From Haloplanus sp. (GTDB taxonomy: Archaea; Halobacteriota; Halobacteria; Halobacteriales; Haloferacaceae): a stretch of 64,000 nt of DNA. The notes under the pieces were generated by a model that had not been told where the DNA came from, searched no databases, and saw nothing but the letters and a program-made list of their open reading frames with translations. Shown piece by piece: positions 46,727 through 57,591 of the stretch. Within the stretch, counting starts at the first letter, position 1. Each line of letters opens with the position of its first letter. The translations under genes were made by a program, and so were the position numbers. The stretch is taken from assembly GCF_028275055.1 (NCBI RefSeq), contig NZ_JAQCNJ010000046.1, positions 1 through 64,000 of the forward strand. Reading direction: 5' to 3'.

Positions 46727-46877
46727 CCACGCCGCTCCGCCCCGCGCTCGTGCCCCGAGATGTGTGTCCCTGTTGACTAGTTCTCTCCTCCGCGCGTCGT
46801 AATAACGTGGATTTTTACACTCCCGCACAGTACGGTCGCTCATGGCACACCGGCGGGATCACCGTTCCCCGGACGGG

Positions 46878-48320
46878 ATGACGGAGAAATGTGGCGTCGT
46901 CGGCGTCTCCCTCGCCGGTCGCGACGCCGCGCGACCCCTGTACTACTCGTTGTACGCGCTCCAACACCGGGGCCAGGAGTCGGCAGGAATCGTCACGCAC
47001 GACGGGTTCCAGCAACACAGCCGCGTCGAGATGGGGCTCGTCGGCGACGTTTTCGACGCCGACGACCTCGATCAGTTGAACGGGCCGACCGGCATCGGCC
47101 ACGTCCGCTACCCGACGTCGGGCGGCGTCAACACCTGTTGTGCACAGCCGTTTTCGGTTTCGTTCAAATCCGGATCGCTCGGCCTCGCACACAACGGCAA
47201 CCTGGTCAACGCCGCCGAGATCCGGTCGGAACTGGAGGCGCTCGGACACGCCTTCACATCAAACGGTGACACCGAGGTGATCGCCCACGACCTCGCACGG
47301 AACCTCCTGGAGGAGGATCTGGTCCGTGCGGTCAAGCGGACCATGGGCCGCATCCACGGGTCGTACGCGCTGACGATCATGCACGACGACGCCGTTCTCG
47401 GGGTACGCGACCCGCAGGGGAACCGCCCCCTGTGCATCGGCGAACTCGACGACGGCTACGTGTTGGCCTCCGAGTCGGCCGCCATCGACACGCTCGATGG
47501 CACTCTCGTCCGCGACGTTCGTCCGGGCGAGTTGATCGTTCTCGCGCCCGACGGCTCCGGTTTCGACTCGTATCAACTGCTCGACCGCGACGACACCGCC
47601 CACTGCTTTTTCGAACACGTCTACTTCGCCCGCCCGGACTCGGTCATCGACGACAGCCTCGTATACGACGTGCGCCGAGATCTCGGTGGGGAACTGTGGG
47701 CCGAGACCGGCATCGAGACGGACGTGGTAATGCCCGTTCCGGACTCCGGACGCTCGTTTGCCTCGGGGTACGCCGAAGCCGCAAACGCCGACGGCGCGGA
47801 CGTTGAGTTCGCGGAGGGGTTGATGAAAAACCGGTACGTCGGCCGCACGTTCATCATGCCAACACAGGACGAACGCGAACGCGCCGTTCGGCTGAAGCTC
47901 AACCCGATCAAAAGCACCGTGGAGGGCAAAACCGTCACCATCATCGACGACAGCATCGTCCGGGGAACCACCTCGACGCAACTGGTCGATCTGATCCGCG
48001 AGGCAGGCGCCGAGGAGGTCCACGTCCGCATCGGCGCACCGCCGATCGTCGCCCCGTGTTACATGGGCATCGACATGGCGAGCCGGGACGAACTCATCGC
48101 GGCCGACAAAAGTACCGAGGAGATCCGGGAGATGGTTGAGGCCGACAGCCTCGCCTACCTCTCCATCGACGCCATCGCCGACGTTCTCGACCGGTCGCAT
48201 GGCGACCTGTGTCTTGGCTGTGTTACCGGCGAGTACCCGTACGACATCGACGGCGAACGAACCGACCGAGAGGTGTCCCGACCCGCCGTCGGCAGCGGCT
48301 CCGCCCCCGCAGACGACTAA
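46878..48320 (+). CDS. purF: Amidophosphoribosyltransferase
   Basis: CGVVGVSLAGRDAARPLYYSLYALQHRGQESAGI...VTIIDDSIVRGTTSTQLVDLIREAGAEEVHVRIGAPP. Confidence 0.97.
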   Translation: MTEKCGVVGVSLAGRDAARPLYYSLYALQHRGQESAGIVTHDGFQQHSRVEMGLVGDVFDADDLDQLNGPTGIGHVRYPTSGGVNTCCAQPFSVSFKSGSLGLAHNGNLVNAAEIRSELEALGHAFTSNGDTEVIAHDLARNLLEEDLVRAVKRTMGRIHGSYALTIMHDDAVLGVRDPQGNRPLCIGELDDGYVLASESAAIDTLDGTLVRDVRPGELIVLAPDGSGFDSYQLLDRDDTAHCFFEHVYFARPDSVIDDSLVYDVRRDLGGELWAETGIETDVVMPVPDSGRSFASGYAEAANADGADVEFAEGLMKNRYVGRTFIMPTQDERERAVRLKLNPIKSTVEGKTVTIIDDSIVRGTTSTQLVDLIREAGAEEVHVRIGAPPIVAPCYMGIDMASRDELIAADKSTEEIREMVEADSLAYLSIDAIADVLDRSHGDLCLGCVTGEYPYDIDGERTDREVSRPAVGSGSAPADD

Positions 48321-48405
48321 CCCAACCTGTCAGGGGTGTGAAAGCGGCAATCACAGGCGAAACCGGCAATATTTTTCAATGGGTCGTGTGTATCCGTATC
48401 TGACA

Positions 48406-49128
48406 ATGACCGAGGAACGCGACGCTTGGCTGGGACGGCGACGGTTGTTGCGGGCGGGTGCCGGTGCCGTCGGGGCTGGTCTCGTGGGTGCTGGAACGAC
48501 CGGGACCGCAGCCGCGCAGTCCGACCCGTTCGACGGGTGGTTGAGTAGCGTGGGCAACTACGAGGGACTCGTCGACGAGACGGGAACCGACGAGGTAACC
48601 GTCGAGGTCGGCGTCGAACAGGGCAGCGGTGCCTTCGGCTTCGGGCCGGCCGCGGTCCAGGTCGACCCCGGGACGACCGTCGTCTGGGAGTGGACCGGCG
48701 AAGGCGGCGTTCACAACGTCGCCGCCGAGGCGGGGGCCGACTTCGCCAGTGAAACCCTCCAGGAGGAGGGCGCCACGTTCGAGCAGACGTTCGAGGAGGA
48801 GGGCGTCGTCAAGTACTTCTGCCAGCCACACCGGGCGCTGGAGATGAAAGGTGTCGTTGTCGTCGGCGACGTCGACACCGGCGCGGAGGTGATCGGTGGT
48901 GGCGACGGTGGCGGTGGTGGTGGCGGTGATGGCGGTAGCGGCGACGGCGGTGGCGGTGGCGGCGACGGGAGCGGTGACGGCAGTGGCTTCGTCATGTCGC
49001 TGACGGTCGGTGGTGCCATCGTCGCGGCGTTTCTCTCGCCGATCATCTTCGGTCTCGTCTTGATGTTGCGCGACGCGTCGGACAACACGGCCGAAGAGCC
49101 CGCGGAACACGGCGAGTCGGGCCACTAG
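48406..49128 (+). CDS. Halocyanin-like blue copper protein, Tat signal, Gly/Asp linker, C-terminal TM anchor
   Basis: RRRLLRAGAGAVGAG; VQVDPGTTVVWEWTGEGGVHNV...VKYFCQPHRALEMKGVVVV copper-site pattern; FVMSLTVGGAIVAAFLSPIIFGLVLML. Confidence 0.9.
   Translation: MTEERDAWLGRRRLLRAGAGAVGAGLVGAGTTGTAAAQSDPFDGWLSSVGNYEGLVDETGTDEVTVEVGVEQGSGAFGFGPAAVQVDPGTTVVWEWTGEGGVHNVAAEAGADFASETLQEEGATFEQTFEEEGVVKYFCQPHRALEMKGVVVVGDVDTGAEVIGGGDGGGGGGGDGGSGDGGGGGGDGSGDGSGFVMSLTVGGAIVAAFLSPIIFGLVLMLRDASDNTAEEPAEHGESGH
48893..48990 (+). repeat. Low-complexity Gly/Asp/Ser linker repeat (ggtggcgac-type)
   Basis: Encodes GGGDGGGGGGGDGGSGDGGGGGGDGSGDGSG. Confidence 0.85.
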
Positions 49129-49781
49129 AACTCGGTGTCGTCGGCGAACGCGCGGATGATCGCGCCCTCGGCACGGTGGAGTCGTTCACTCGCGGTCGAT
49201 TTCGCGATACCGAGGTGGTCCGCGAGTTCCGTCAGCGTACACTCCCGTGGCGTGTCGTAGTACCCGCGTTCGAGCGCCGTCTCGATCAGCCGTCGCTGTT
49301 CCTCGCTCACGACCGAGTCGTCGTCGGCCGACGTGTGGATCGACCGCACGTCGAACTCCAGTCCGAACGTCCGGAGTTGCTCCCCCAGCGACGACAGGCG
49401 GTCCCGCGAGGCGGTGATGTTGAGCGTTGCGACGCCGTCCCGGACGGTCACCGGCGGTTCGAACGGGGCACGGGAGTTTCGCATCGACAACAACACGAGC
49501 GGTTCGTCCGTCTCGAACTGGACGAGCGCCCGGTTCTCGCCCCGGTGGAGTACCTCGAAGATACGGACGCCGCCCGTGTCGTCGAGTTGCGAGAGTACGG
49601 TCGCGATGTTCTCGGCGGTTATCTCAACCAACCCGACACCCGTCTCACCGTCGGGGAGCGCCGCGAGAACGCGCCAGGTCGCCTCGGGAAACCGCGTCGA
49701 GAGCTCCGCGATCCAGACCGACTCGGGGATGGTCACCGCGAGTGTCGCAGTCGGCATGCCCCAACTCTCGGGGTCCGACAT
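49125..49781 (-). CDS. HTH_10 regulator (NarO/DmsR-like)
   Basis: SEEQRRLIETALERGYYDTPRECTLTELADHLGIAKSTASERLHRAEGAIIRAFA; next to nirK. Confidence 0.85.
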   Translation of the reverse strand: MSDPESWGMPTATLAVTIPESVWIAELSTRFPEATWRVLAALPDGETGVGLVEITAENIATVLSQLDDTGGVRIFEVLHRGENRALVQFETDEPLVLLSMRNSRAPFEPPVTVRDGVATLNITASRDRLSSLGEQLRTFGLEFDVRSIHTSADDDSVVSEEQRRLIETALERGYYDTPRECTLTELADHLGIAKSTASERLHRAEGAIIRAFADDTEF

Positions 49782-49889
49782 CAAATACCCTGCCGGACCC
49801 TCGTCGCTTGAAAAGTGGCGTGACCTCGTGTGGTATGACCCGCCGCGAGTCGGCGTCACGGGACCGGTCGCGACGCCGACGCGATCAGG

Positions 49890-50987
49890 TCAGGCGGGCG
49901 TGGTTTTGCCACCTCCCTCCCGTGGGTCGGGGTCGAAGATCTCCGGACGCTCCTCGCCCTCGGCGGTGACGATCGCCAGACAGCCCCGGCGGGCGACCCG
50001 GCTGAGCGCGTGGTCAACGAGTTTGAAGTTCCCCGGGACTGGGAACTCCATCGTCGCGATACAGGTGCTCCCGGGCGCGACCGGCGAGGTCTGGATGTGG
50101 GTCTGTGGCTCCGTCGTGAGCGAGCCCTGTGGCCAGAACTCCTCCCAGACGTTGCCGATGGGGTGGAAACTACTGGTGAGGTTGGGACCGCCGGTGACGA
50201 AGTACACCCGCGCGGTGTTCCCGGTGGACACCGTCGCCGCCGAGCCGTGGACGTCCGGGGTCATAGCGTACTTCTCCCCGTTCATGACGACGTAGGTCGG
50301 GTCCTCCGCCTTCATCGCCGCCATGTCGAAGCTGTGGTTGCCCTCCTGGCCCACCTGGCCGTCGGTGTAGAGTTCGTGCTGTCCGAGGTAGAGTTCCTGA
50401 TCGACCTCAGGGAGGCCTGCCTCGGGTTCGACGAGGATGACCCCGAACATGCCGGCGCTGATGTGCATGTCCATGTTCGGGACGGCACAGTGGTAGATGT
50501 ACGCGCCGGGGTATCTCGCCGCGAACCGCAGGTGTGCCGTCTCGCCGGGCGCGGTCATCGTCGCCTCGGCGCCGCCACCGGGTCCCGCGGCGGCGTGGAA
50601 GTCCACGTTGTGTGGCAGGGCGTTCTCCGAGGGGTTCTCGAAGGTGAGGTTCACCGTGTCGCCACGCCGGACCCGGACCATCGGTCCGGGAACCTGTCCG
50701 TTGTACGTCATATAGTCGAAGGTGACGCCGGGTTCGACCTCGGCGGTCACCTCCTCGGGGCGGAGGGTCACGTCCACCTCCGCCGGTTCGTCCCGGTCGA
50801 TCGGTTCCGGGATATCTGTCGGATCGGCCGCGACCCGGTCGACGCTGGGCGTCGGCGCCTGCTCAACGCGGTCGCGCTGTTTCTGTGCCGCCTCCGTTGA
50901 GGGGGCCTGAACGCTGCATCCCGCGGCCGCCGCCGCACCACCGACCCCGAGCGCTTGGAGCGCTCGACGCCGGGTTGTTTCGAACAT
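49890..50987 (-). CDS. nirK: Copper-containing nitrite reductase
   Basis: MTYNGQVPGPMVRVRRGDTVNLTFENPSENALPHNVDFHAAAGPGGGAEAT...GAYIYHCAVPNMDMHISAGMFGVILVEP...SSFHPIGNVWEEFW. Confidence 0.95.
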   Translation of the reverse strand: MFETTRRRALQALGVGGAAAAAGCSVQAPSTEAAQKQRDRVEQAPTPSVDRVAADPTDIPEPIDRDEPAEVDVTLRPEEVTAEVEPGVTFDYMTYNGQVPGPMVRVRRGDTVNLTFENPSENALPHNVDFHAAAGPGGGAEATMTAPGETAHLRFAARYPGAYIYHCAVPNMDMHISAGMFGVILVEPEAGLPEVDQELYLGQHELYTDGQVGQEGNHSFDMAAMKAEDPTYVVMNGEKYAMTPDVHGSAATVSTGNTARVYFVTGGPNLTSSFHPIGNVWEEFWPQGSLTTEPQTHIQTSPVAPGSTCIATMEFPVPGNFKLVDHALSRVARRGCLAIVTAEGEERPEIFDPDPREGGGKTTPA

Positions 50988-51154: not shown

Positions 51155-51556
51155 TCAGCAACAGAAGATGAACGGGTAGACGAGGCTCACACGGTCGCCG
51201 TCCTCGATCTCCGTGTCGAATCCGTCTAATACTTCGTTGAACTTCCCGTTGATCAGCACGCGGGCGTATGGTTTGGTCTGTTCGCCCTCGGGATTTTTGT
51301 GCCACCTGCCGGGGAGGTTCTCTGGCGGCTCGGCCCACCCGGTCGTCGTCGCCTCGGCCTCCGTCTCCGCGACCAGCATCTCCGCGAGTTCCGGCCGTTC
51401 GTCGAACAACCTCTCGAGGAGGGCACGCAGTGTCGTCCCCTCGAACGTGAACTCCTGGTGGGGCTGGTCCATCCGCGCACGGACGTGCCCCGTCGCGTGG
51501 AGCGCGACGGTCGTCCCCGGCGTACTCTCGACCTCGGCCTCTGTTGTCGTACTCAT
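51155..51556 (-). CDS. MoaD/ThiS-type beta-grasp protein ending in Cys-Cys
   Basis: FTFEGTTLRALLERLFDERPELAEML...KPYARVLINGKFNEVLDGFDTEIEDGDRVSLVYPFIFCC*. Confidence 0.82.
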   Translation of the reverse strand: MSTTTEAEVESTPGTTVALHATGHVRARMDQPHQEFTFEGTTLRALLERLFDERPELAEMLVAETEAEATTTGWAEPPENLPGRWHKNPEGEQTKPYARVLINGKFNEVLDGFDTEIEDGDRVSLVYPFIFCC

Positions 51557-51674: not shown

Positions 51675-52051
51675 ATGGTGCGTGATCCGCTGTCGGGTGA
51701 CGACTCGCCCGACCTGCAGTCGGTTCTCGATGCGCTCGACGACGCCGACTGCCGGACCATCATCAGGCATCTCGACGAACCGATGACGGCCACCGAGGTG
51801 TCCGGGGAGTGTGATATCCCCATGTCGACGACATACCGAAAGCTCGACCTGCTTACCGACGCCTCGCTGCTCGTCGAGGGAACGGAGATCAGGCCCGACG
51901 GCCACCACGCGACCCGGTACGGACTCGACTTCGAGACGGTCTCCATCGGCGTGACCGAGACCAGAGCGATCGAGGTGTCGATCGACCGGCCGGCACGGAC
52001 CGCCGACGAACGCCTCGCGTCCCTGTGGGGGAGGTTCGGAAGGAGACATGA
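51675..52051 (+). pseudogene. Winged-helix (ArsR-like) regulator with a -1 frame disruption at a G5 run (52027-52031)
   Basis: LQSVLDALDDADCRTIIRHLDEPMTATEVSGECDIPMSTTYRKLDLLTDASLL...DERLASLWG; one extra G gives LWGEVRKET* with TGA overlapping the ATG of the next gene. Confidence 0.85.
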
Positions 52052-52323
52052 GTCACCTCGATATCGCATTGACGGCGGTCAAATCCGGGATGCTCCTGCT
52101 GGGGAGTCTCATCGTCCTCCTCTCGTGGAAGGCCTACCGCCGAACGGGCGCTCCCGCGTTGCGGGCGCTCAGCGTCGGCTTCGGGCTGGTCACGGTGGGC
52201 GCCATCGCCGCCGGCGTTGGCCACCAGTTCACGTCGCTCTCGCTCGCACAGTCGGTCGTCATCGAGAGCACGCTCACGTTCCTTGGCTTCGCGGTCATCA
52301 TCTACTCGCTGTACGCCGAGTGA
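52048..52323 (+). CDS. Small membrane protein (DUF7521-like)
   Basis: LDIALTAVKSGMLLLGSLIVLLSWKAYRRTGAPALRALSVGFGLVTVGAIAAGVGHQF. Confidence 0.8.
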   Translation: MSHLDIALTAVKSGMLLLGSLIVLLSWKAYRRTGAPALRALSVGFGLVTVGAIAAGVGHQFTSLSLAQSVVIESTLTFLGFAVIIYSLYAE

Positions 52324-52884
52324 TCAGTAGACGACGTACAGGAGGGCGTACACGGCGTTTCCGAGAACGAACGACACCAGCCACAGGCTCGCGGCCACCC
52401 GGCCGATACGGGCGTGTGCGGTGTCGACGAGCGCCCGGATGGGGTGGGTCGCCCCGAGCAACAGCACGTAGTACAGCAACGGGATACAGACAACGGCGAG
52501 CAGGATGTGGACCGCGAGCAACGGGAGGTAGAGTAGCCGGTACACCCTCTCGGGCCCTGGGAACTCCGCCGGGCCTTCGAGAGCGACCTTGTAGAGGTAC
52601 AGAATCAGGAAGACGGCGAACAGTCCGGCCGAAAGCGCCATCATCGCGCGGTGGCGGCCGAACTCGCGCCGGCGGGCGAAGGTGACGCCGGCGGCGATGG
52701 TGACGATTGCGACGGTGCTGACAACGGCGTTGATGTGTGGGATGGCCGCGAGAACGTAGCCGGGAGCGCGTGGGAGCGCCGCCCGCGGAATCGCCCCCAA
52801 CGCCGCCGCGAACACGAGTGCCAGCGATGTCAGCGAGAGGGCCACGGTCAGTTCCGGAACCCGGTCGCGTGCGTTCGAGTACAT
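52324..52884 (-). CDS. DUF420 membrane protein
   Basis: IPHINAVVSTVAIVTIAAGVTFARRREFGRHRAMMALSAGLFAVFLILYLYKVA...LLAVHILLAVVCIPLLYYVLLLG...HARIGRVAASLWLVSFVLGNAVYALLY. Confidence 0.9.
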   Translation of the reverse strand: MYSNARDRVPELTVALSLTSLALVFAAALGAIPRAALPRAPGYVLAAIPHINAVVSTVAIVTIAAGVTFARRREFGRHRAMMALSAGLFAVFLILYLYKVALEGPAEFPGPERVYRLLYLPLLAVHILLAVVCIPLLYYVLLLGATHPIRALVDTAHARIGRVAASLWLVSFVLGNAVYALLYVVY

Positions 52885-53046
52885 GTCGGCTTTGAGTGGC
52901 CGATCCACAAAATCCCCGCGGCTTCGTGATCGTAGAACCCCGTGGTGGCGACGGGACACCGGACCGCTGGAGTGGCAAAAGGAAAGCCATTTCAAATACC
53001 CCCGTCAACGGACGTATGCGTCCGACACGACACAGAACTCATGCGA

Positions 53047-56646: not shown

Positions 56647-57591
56647 ATGGCCGGCCCACTCACCGACGCCCTCGCTTGGGTCGTCGTTGGCCTCTTTCTC
56701 ACCGGGACGCTCCTCAGGCGGTTTGATCGTGCCGGTGCACGACCGGCGACGGTCGGTGCGTGGGCCGTTTTCGCCCTCTTTTGGGCGGCACTGGTCCCCC
56801 ATTTCGCGTTCGAACAAAAGAGCTTCGTCGAGGGGATCCTCTCTCTCGCCGCCGTCCCCGCGTCGTTGTACGTCGGTTGGCTTCTCCGCGCCGGCCGTGA
56901 CTCGTTGTTCGTTCTTTCGACGGCCGTCGCCGTTATGGGCGCCGTCTACCTCCCCTTCGAGACGATACCGGCGGTGACACTCGCCGGCCTCTCGCTCCCG
57001 TCGCCGCGGTACGTTCTCATCTCTCATACGACCGCACAGACCCAGTGGGCGATGGAACTTCTGGGCTACTCGCCGACGCTCGTCGAGGGTGACCAAGGCT
57101 ATCTCAACACGTTCAAATTCGTCACCGACGGCGGACACGTCATTCTCTTTTCGATCATCCTCGCGTGTACCGGGCTGGGAAGCATCGCCATCTTTGTCGG
57201 TCTTATCGCCGCTGTCGACGCGCCGTTCTCCCGGAAACTCCGTGCGTTCGCCGTTGCCGTGCCCATCATCTACGTTCTCAACATCATGCGCACGACGTTT
57301 ATCGCTGTGATGTTCGGCAAACAGTATATGCAGTGGTTCGTCGACGAGGTGCTCTTTCTGTTCGGCGGCACCGACCCGTACAAGGTTTCGTTCTATCTCT
57401 CGGATCGGGTCATCAGCCAGGTGCTCGCGGTGGTTGCTCTGGTCGGCATCACCTTTCTCGTGATCCGGGAGCTTCCCGAACTGTTGACGATCGTCGAGGA
57501 CGTTCTCTACATCGTCACGCGGAAGGAGTACGACCTCCGCGAGGCGCTCGACCTGCCCGACGAGAACGAACTCGGCCCCGGTGCGGACTGA
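56647..57591 (+). CDS. artA: Archaeosortase A
   Basis: Polytopic; SIILACTGLGSIAIFVGL (catalytic Cys) and VLNIMRTTFIAVMF (Arg). Confidence 0.92.
   Translation: MAGPLTDALAWVVVGLFLTGTLLRRFDRAGARPATVGAWAVFALFWAALVPHFAFEQKSFVEGILSLAAVPASLYVGWLLRAGRDSLFVLSTAVAVMGAVYLPFETIPAVTLAGLSLPSPRYVLISHTTAQTQWAMELLGYSPTLVEGDQGYLNTFKFVTDGGHVILFSIILACTGLGSIAIFVGLIAAVDAPFSRKLRAFAVAVPIIYVLNIMRTTFIAVMFGKQYMQWFVDEVLFLFGGTDPYKVSFYLSDRVISQVLAVVALVGITFLVIRELPELLTIVEDVLYIVTRKEYDLREALDLPDENELGPGAD

Follow-up and report, generated by a model that had tools for sequence, protein, structure and literature searches.

The window, a stretch of 64,000 nucleotides from a Haloplanus genome (contig NZ_JAQCNJ010000046.1), encodes on its minus strand a 133-residue MoaD/ThiS-like protein of the beta-grasp (ubiquitin-like, Ubl) type (51155..51556), hereafter the CC-tailed protein. 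Its reading frame ends in VYPFIFCC followed by a TGA stop, as the first-pass annotation had read it. The neighbour named in that annotation, the gene nirK for a copper-containing nitrite reductase that bears a twin-arginine signal, does lie beside it: it follows downstream at a distance of 167 bp, on the same strand (49890..50987; TIGR02376, 442 bits). The third gene in the run encodes a Bat-like HTH_10 regulator recognized by Pfam (49125..49859, minus strand). A halocyanin-like open reading frame with an uncertain start codon (48136..49128, plus strand) forms the last part of the cassette between the CC-tailed gene and a purF-like gene (46842..48320, plus strand). On the other side lies a DUF420 gene (52324..52995, minus strand), a neighbour conserved in several Haloferacaceae. 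The upstream HTH gene (51675-52094) seems frameshifted, as relatives end in ...SLWGEVRKET and the copy here reads SLWGRFGRRHESP, extending to 336 aa. One base has apparently been lost from a run of G, through either an assembly error or a recent mutation. Further away, a membrane open reading frame (56647-57591) resembles an archaeosortase by eye alone.

The CC-tailed protein has a ubiquitin (beta-grasp) fold and is kin to MoaD/ThiS, as proposed at first pass. Pfam ThiS scores the protein just above its cut-off (23.1 vs 22.5 bits), and a profile of 31 homologues aligned with the Gly-Gly-ending MoaD family (MoaD-GG) at 95% probability (E=1.8e-8). The AlphaFold model, built on 80 homologues, has a pLDDT of 83, and its top fold matches in the PDB are SAMP1, HVO_2177, MoaD and Urm1. 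With MoaD, SAMP1 and HVO_2177 the protein shares the fold, the strand order, an NG..G.DT..DGD motif and a tail after a conserved proline. It differs from them in lacking Gly-Gly, in carrying a 25-residue insert and in scoring below the cut-offs of the NCBIfam SAMP1 and moaD_arch models (27 vs 49.5 bits for TIGR01687 and 30 vs 60 for NF041918). Well-studied beta-grasp carriers and modifiers have a terminal glycine that is activated by an E1 enzyme. In the model, residues 131-133 have a mean pLDDT of 43, which is consistent with a mobile C-terminal end. The copy in Haloplanus ruber is 82% identical. Two paralogues in the same genome retain Gly-Gly tails (FPPVAGG at L036 and FPAMRGG at L038), thus the CC-tailed protein is not simply replacing them.

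In an alignment of 80 homologues, P128, F129 and C132 of the C-terminal motif PFIFCC (51158..51175, minus strand) are invariant. The 85 full-length haloarchaeal homologues all share the penultimate C132 (codon at 51161..51163, minus strand), and none of these ends in Gly-Gly. The last two residues are CC at 65 loci, CL at 14, CV at three, CF at two and CY at one. The final residue is hence Cys in 65/85 and Leu, Val, Phe or Tyr in 20/85, with 12 or more switches along the family tree. The conserved unit is a single penultimate Cys, not a Cys-Cys pair. The initial view of a conserved Cys-Cys end in place of Gly-Gly therefore stands for the missing Gly-Gly and for the first Cys, and fails for the second. 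A strict di-Cys metal site, also suggested early on, is disfavoured by a last Cys that the family can do without. Two further candidates were rejected. The persistence of the motif in 85 homologues rules out that a Gly-Gly tail was locally mutated or misread in sequencing, and the repeated changes of the last residue exclude a conserved di-Cys unit. From the conserved proline of the profile matches onwards, the tail has one residue more than P-V-A-G-G. Aligned without a gap, the invariant Cys would occupy the position of the terminal Gly and a free residue would follow, within an uncertainty of one residue in the register.

The insert comprises residues 65-89 (51290..51364, minus strand) and has no MoaD-GG counterpart. 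It appears as a 25-residue query-only gap in the profile alignment, which corroborates an insert flagged at first pass as about 30 aa long and atypical of MoaD. The 80 aligned sequences share 21 invariant positions, distributed over the tail, the insert region and core residues. Those in or beside the insert are G73, W74, N88, P89 and G91, and the insert equals the protein core in its degree of conservation. Directly upstream of the CC-tailed gene, a tandem paralogue occurs in Haloglomus (L032:5457-5858) and in a related MAG (L034:5444-5836), with a tail of EPLTC or EPLTV and no PF-x-F-C motif.

Tail and insert conservation bear on two explanations. A degenerate beta-grasp scaffold stripped of tail chemistry would fit the loss of Gly-Gly, which removes the known chemistry, as well as the tandem paralogue that also lacks the Cys motif. 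Drift would not preserve C132, P128, F129 and the insert residues in 80 sequences though, and such a scaffold is scarcely probable. Alternatively, the protein could be a protein modifier or a membrane-anchored Ubl whose Cys tail is lipidated or covalently linked to partners. Eukaryotic prenylation tails are similar to C-termini that end in CC or in Cys plus a hydrophobic residue, and halophiles are known to contain isoprenoid-linked proteins. However, the Gly-Gly needed for E1-type conjugation is replaced by the Cys tail, and we regard a modifier or anchored Ubl as very unlikely.

Of 294 Halobacteria genomes, 187 carry the family, representing 47 of 77 genera. A phylum-wide sample of 295 genomes contained 35 with a match, all in the order of the window, and no match outside Halobacteria at E<=1e-10. 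As far as seen, the family is confined to Halobacteria within this sample. One haloarchaeal beta-grasp arCOG with a double-cysteine C-terminus, arCOG00539, has been reported (Makarova and Koonin 2010, PMC2948915). The traits ascribed to arCOG00539 in the relevant part of that paper, namely restriction to Halobacteria, the beta-grasp fold and the CC tail, are all shared by the present family (CC in 65/85, first Cys in 85/85). Judged by these traits, the family is almost certainly arCOG00539, thus a CC-tailed Ubl as such is not new. The same part of the paper mentions neither the insert nor the variability of the last residue, and neither a nirK or CGCGG context nor a mechanism. A literature search found no experimental work on the family.

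The position of nirK next to the CC-tailed gene seems to be a feature of the Haloplanus lineage. An intact nirK adjoins the gene in 10 of 12 Haloplanus genomes; G005 has only a nirK remnant and G011 has no nirK, and both kept the CC-tailed gene. In several related genera, purF and the CC-tailed gene converge directly on each other, with 40-135 bp between them. The spacing in the window is 2.8 kb, filled by nirK, the Bat-like gene and the halocyanin, and in G011 it is 1.5 kb without nirK. The simplest reading is a single insertion in the Haloplanus lineage.

Linkage to nirK also recurs elsewhere. Ten of 84 distinct loci in seven genera (six besides Haloplanus) have nirK within 8.5 kb, with about 0.5 expected if each 3.6-Mb genome holds about one target copy. 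The proximity test was entered with 11 observed loci, which became 10 after removing the duplicate locus L033, and tblastn "nirK" matches at L091 and L094 are other multicopper oxidases left out of the counts. A class-wide scan of the 294 genomes detected CGCGG in 199, TIGR04053 in 124 and nirK in 156. The CC-tailed gene co-occurs with nirK (OR 2.9, p=2e-5) and with CGCGG (OR 4.5, p=1e-8) in Fisher tests that take genomes as independent, so that shared ancestry makes these and the following p values optimistic. Within CGCGG-positive or CGCGG-negative genomes the correlation with nirK is gone (p=0.46 and 0.48), and the correlation with CGCGG persists among nirK-negative genomes (p=2e-4). Furthermore, 70 of the 187 family-bearing genomes lack nirK. 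The link to nirK is real but secondary, and class-wide co-occurrence rules out an exclusive tie. For the early expectation of linkage to nirK in other genomes the outcome is mixed: close neighbourhood recurs, but co-occurrence does not hold up once CGCGG is taken into account.

These patterns make copper delivery dedicated to NirK unlikely, and with the Haloplanus cassette explaining the adjacency, delivery to NirK as a general role is disfavoured. One first-pass proposal was that both tail cysteines serve a chaperone of copper or another metal for NirK or halocyanin. The Haloplanus adjacency and the proximity in seven genera would suit such a chaperone, the twin-arginine signal of NirK makes metal loading before export conceivable, and a heavy-metal P-type ATPase lies close by in Haloprofundus. 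Yet the gene persists in Haloplanus genomes with a remnant of nirK or none, no association with nirK remains given CGCGG, and the last Cys is missing at 20/85 loci. A metal chaperone is therefore a highly improbable explanation. As a separate observation, the CGCGG candidate RiPP family (TIGR03995) occurs in 147 of 156 nirK-bearing vs 52 of 138 nirK-less haloarchaeal genomes (OR 27), and it adjoins nirK in some genomes, such as G055 and G015. As an accessory protein to nirK or denitrification, CGCGG seems a stronger candidate than the CC-tailed protein.

The CC-tailed gene lies in a broader setting of anaerobic respiration and radical-SAM genes that is not specific to NirK. Neighbours were clustered over 85 loci using gene calls from a crude script, by which small genes may be missed. 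A radical-SAM family gene (TIGR04053 or TIGR04347, initially mixed in one cluster and split in part) lies near 26/85 loci and the CGCGG candidate RiPP near 20/85. Bat-like HTH genes occur near 22/85 and qNor near 6/85. A locus combining aldehyde ferredoxin oxidoreductase (AOR) with a MoaD-GG and a TBP-like protein ending in Gly-Gly is found at 11/85, and DUF2249 genes are also recurrent. Overall, 49/85 loci are near a denitrification, radical-SAM or Mo/W-enzyme gene, and 35/85 have no denitrification, radical-SAM or AOR marker. The immediate neighbours of these 35 showed nothing recurrent beyond HTH_10, aldo/keto reductase and Usp genes. Annotated loci illustrate the range: nirK, a qNor-like oxidase and a radical SAM gene in Halorussus; TIGR04053, TIGR04347 and Htur_1727 in Halobaculum, with a molybdopterin oxidoreductase operon immediately downstream on the same strand; NrfD/PsrC and CGCGG in Natrononativus; and nirK, three DUF2249 genes and CGCGG in Haloprofundus. 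A nitrate-reductase-type Mo enzyme was considered as a constant partner and found to be a weak one, as a NarG-type enzyme occurs in 24/294 genomes and is linked with the CC-tailed gene at p=0.045. Small TBP-like proteins ending in Gly-Gly (arCOG06308-like) stand beside MoaD-GG at L036 in the genome of the window and at AOR loci (L106, L116 and similar), some of which also contain the CC-tailed gene. A DUF2249 protein found near several loci (L112:4587-4862) has a weak Pfam match to TusA (E=0.0027), a hint that DUF2249 proteins linked to denitrification may be TusA-like.

The frequent radical-SAM genes raise the question of whether the CC-tailed protein is a partner or substrate of a radical-SAM/SPASM modification, carried out by TIGR04053 or TIGR04347 together with CGCGG or Htur_1727 candidate RiPPs. 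The tail PF[MIL][FY]C, rich in aromatic residues, would then be the modified core and the beta-grasp domain its carrier. The genes often adjoin in one operon, and the correlation with CGCGG holds even among nirK-less genomes. Of the 187 gene-bearing genomes, though, 98 lack TIGR04053 and 38 lack CGCGG, and 25 carry the CC-tailed gene without any of the three families covered by the class-wide scan (TIGR04053, CGCGG and nirK). A pure substrate should not outlast its enzyme so frequently. The absence of TIGR04053 from so many genomes weakens an obligate substrate role, and radical-SAM modification in general appears unlikely. The recurrent Bat-like and qNor genes, in turn, could point to a thiol redox or NO-responsive regulator, whose tail Cys would be attacked by NO or oxidants and whose target would be the neighbouring Bat-like HTH protein. 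Denitrification genes generate NO. However, Bat-like genes are numerous in haloarchaea and part of the proximity is thus background, fusions with regulators were not observed, and the conserved insert is left unexplained. We consider a regulatory role decidedly unlikely.

We prefer to view the CC-tailed protein as a possible E1-independent sulfur carrier that bears a persulfide on its penultimate Cys and serves anaerobic metalloenzymes, a reading by analogy with DsrC/TusE that we hold with less than even confidence. Persulfide carriage was also among the roles put forward at first pass. C132 would carry a persulfide in place of the E1-made thiocarboxylate on Gly, sulfur would be handed to, or taken from, enzymes or metal centres of anaerobic respiration, and the insert might act as the docking surface. 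DsrC has a strictly conserved penultimate Cys on its flexible C-terminus, and persulfuration occurs exclusively at this residue (PMC3397948). This precedent for an invariant penultimate Cys at a mobile end is why a persulfide carrier is preferred. The tail matches this expectation, with C132 always kept and the last residue free to change. The nearest folds, SAMP1, MoaD, Urm1 and CysO, are established or presumed sulfur carriers. Genomic context is also compatible with sulfur transfer, as the 11 AOR loci have a separate MoaD-GG, other loci have nitrate-reductase-type and NrfD/PsrC molybdoenzyme genes, and one of the DUF2249 neighbours is weakly TusA-like. Gly-Gly-tailed paralogues being present in the same genome fits as well. 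On the other hand, no sulfur donor or acceptor was found, no sulfurtransferase is a constant neighbour, the marker genes are missing at 35/85 loci and no single Mo enzyme is more than weakly tied to the gene. The likeness to DsrC/TusE is one of working principle, with the penultimate Cys invariant and the C-terminal arm flexible, and concerns the tail position without homology: Foldseek and PDB sequence matches were all beta-grasp proteins, none of them DsrC/TusE.

The family occurs in about two thirds of the sampled haloarchaeal species, and it kept its fold while the Gly chemistry was invariantly replaced by Cys, as first noted in 2010 for the CC tail. The present analysis singles out the penultimate Cys as the key residue and moves the context from NirK to anaerobic respiration and radical-SAM genes. 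By the same analogy, and somewhat unlikely as the full scenario may be, a ubiquitin-fold carrier could have exchanged its Gly-thiocarboxylate for an E1-independent persulfide on the penultimate Cys and been recruited by haloarchaea to anaerobic respiration.
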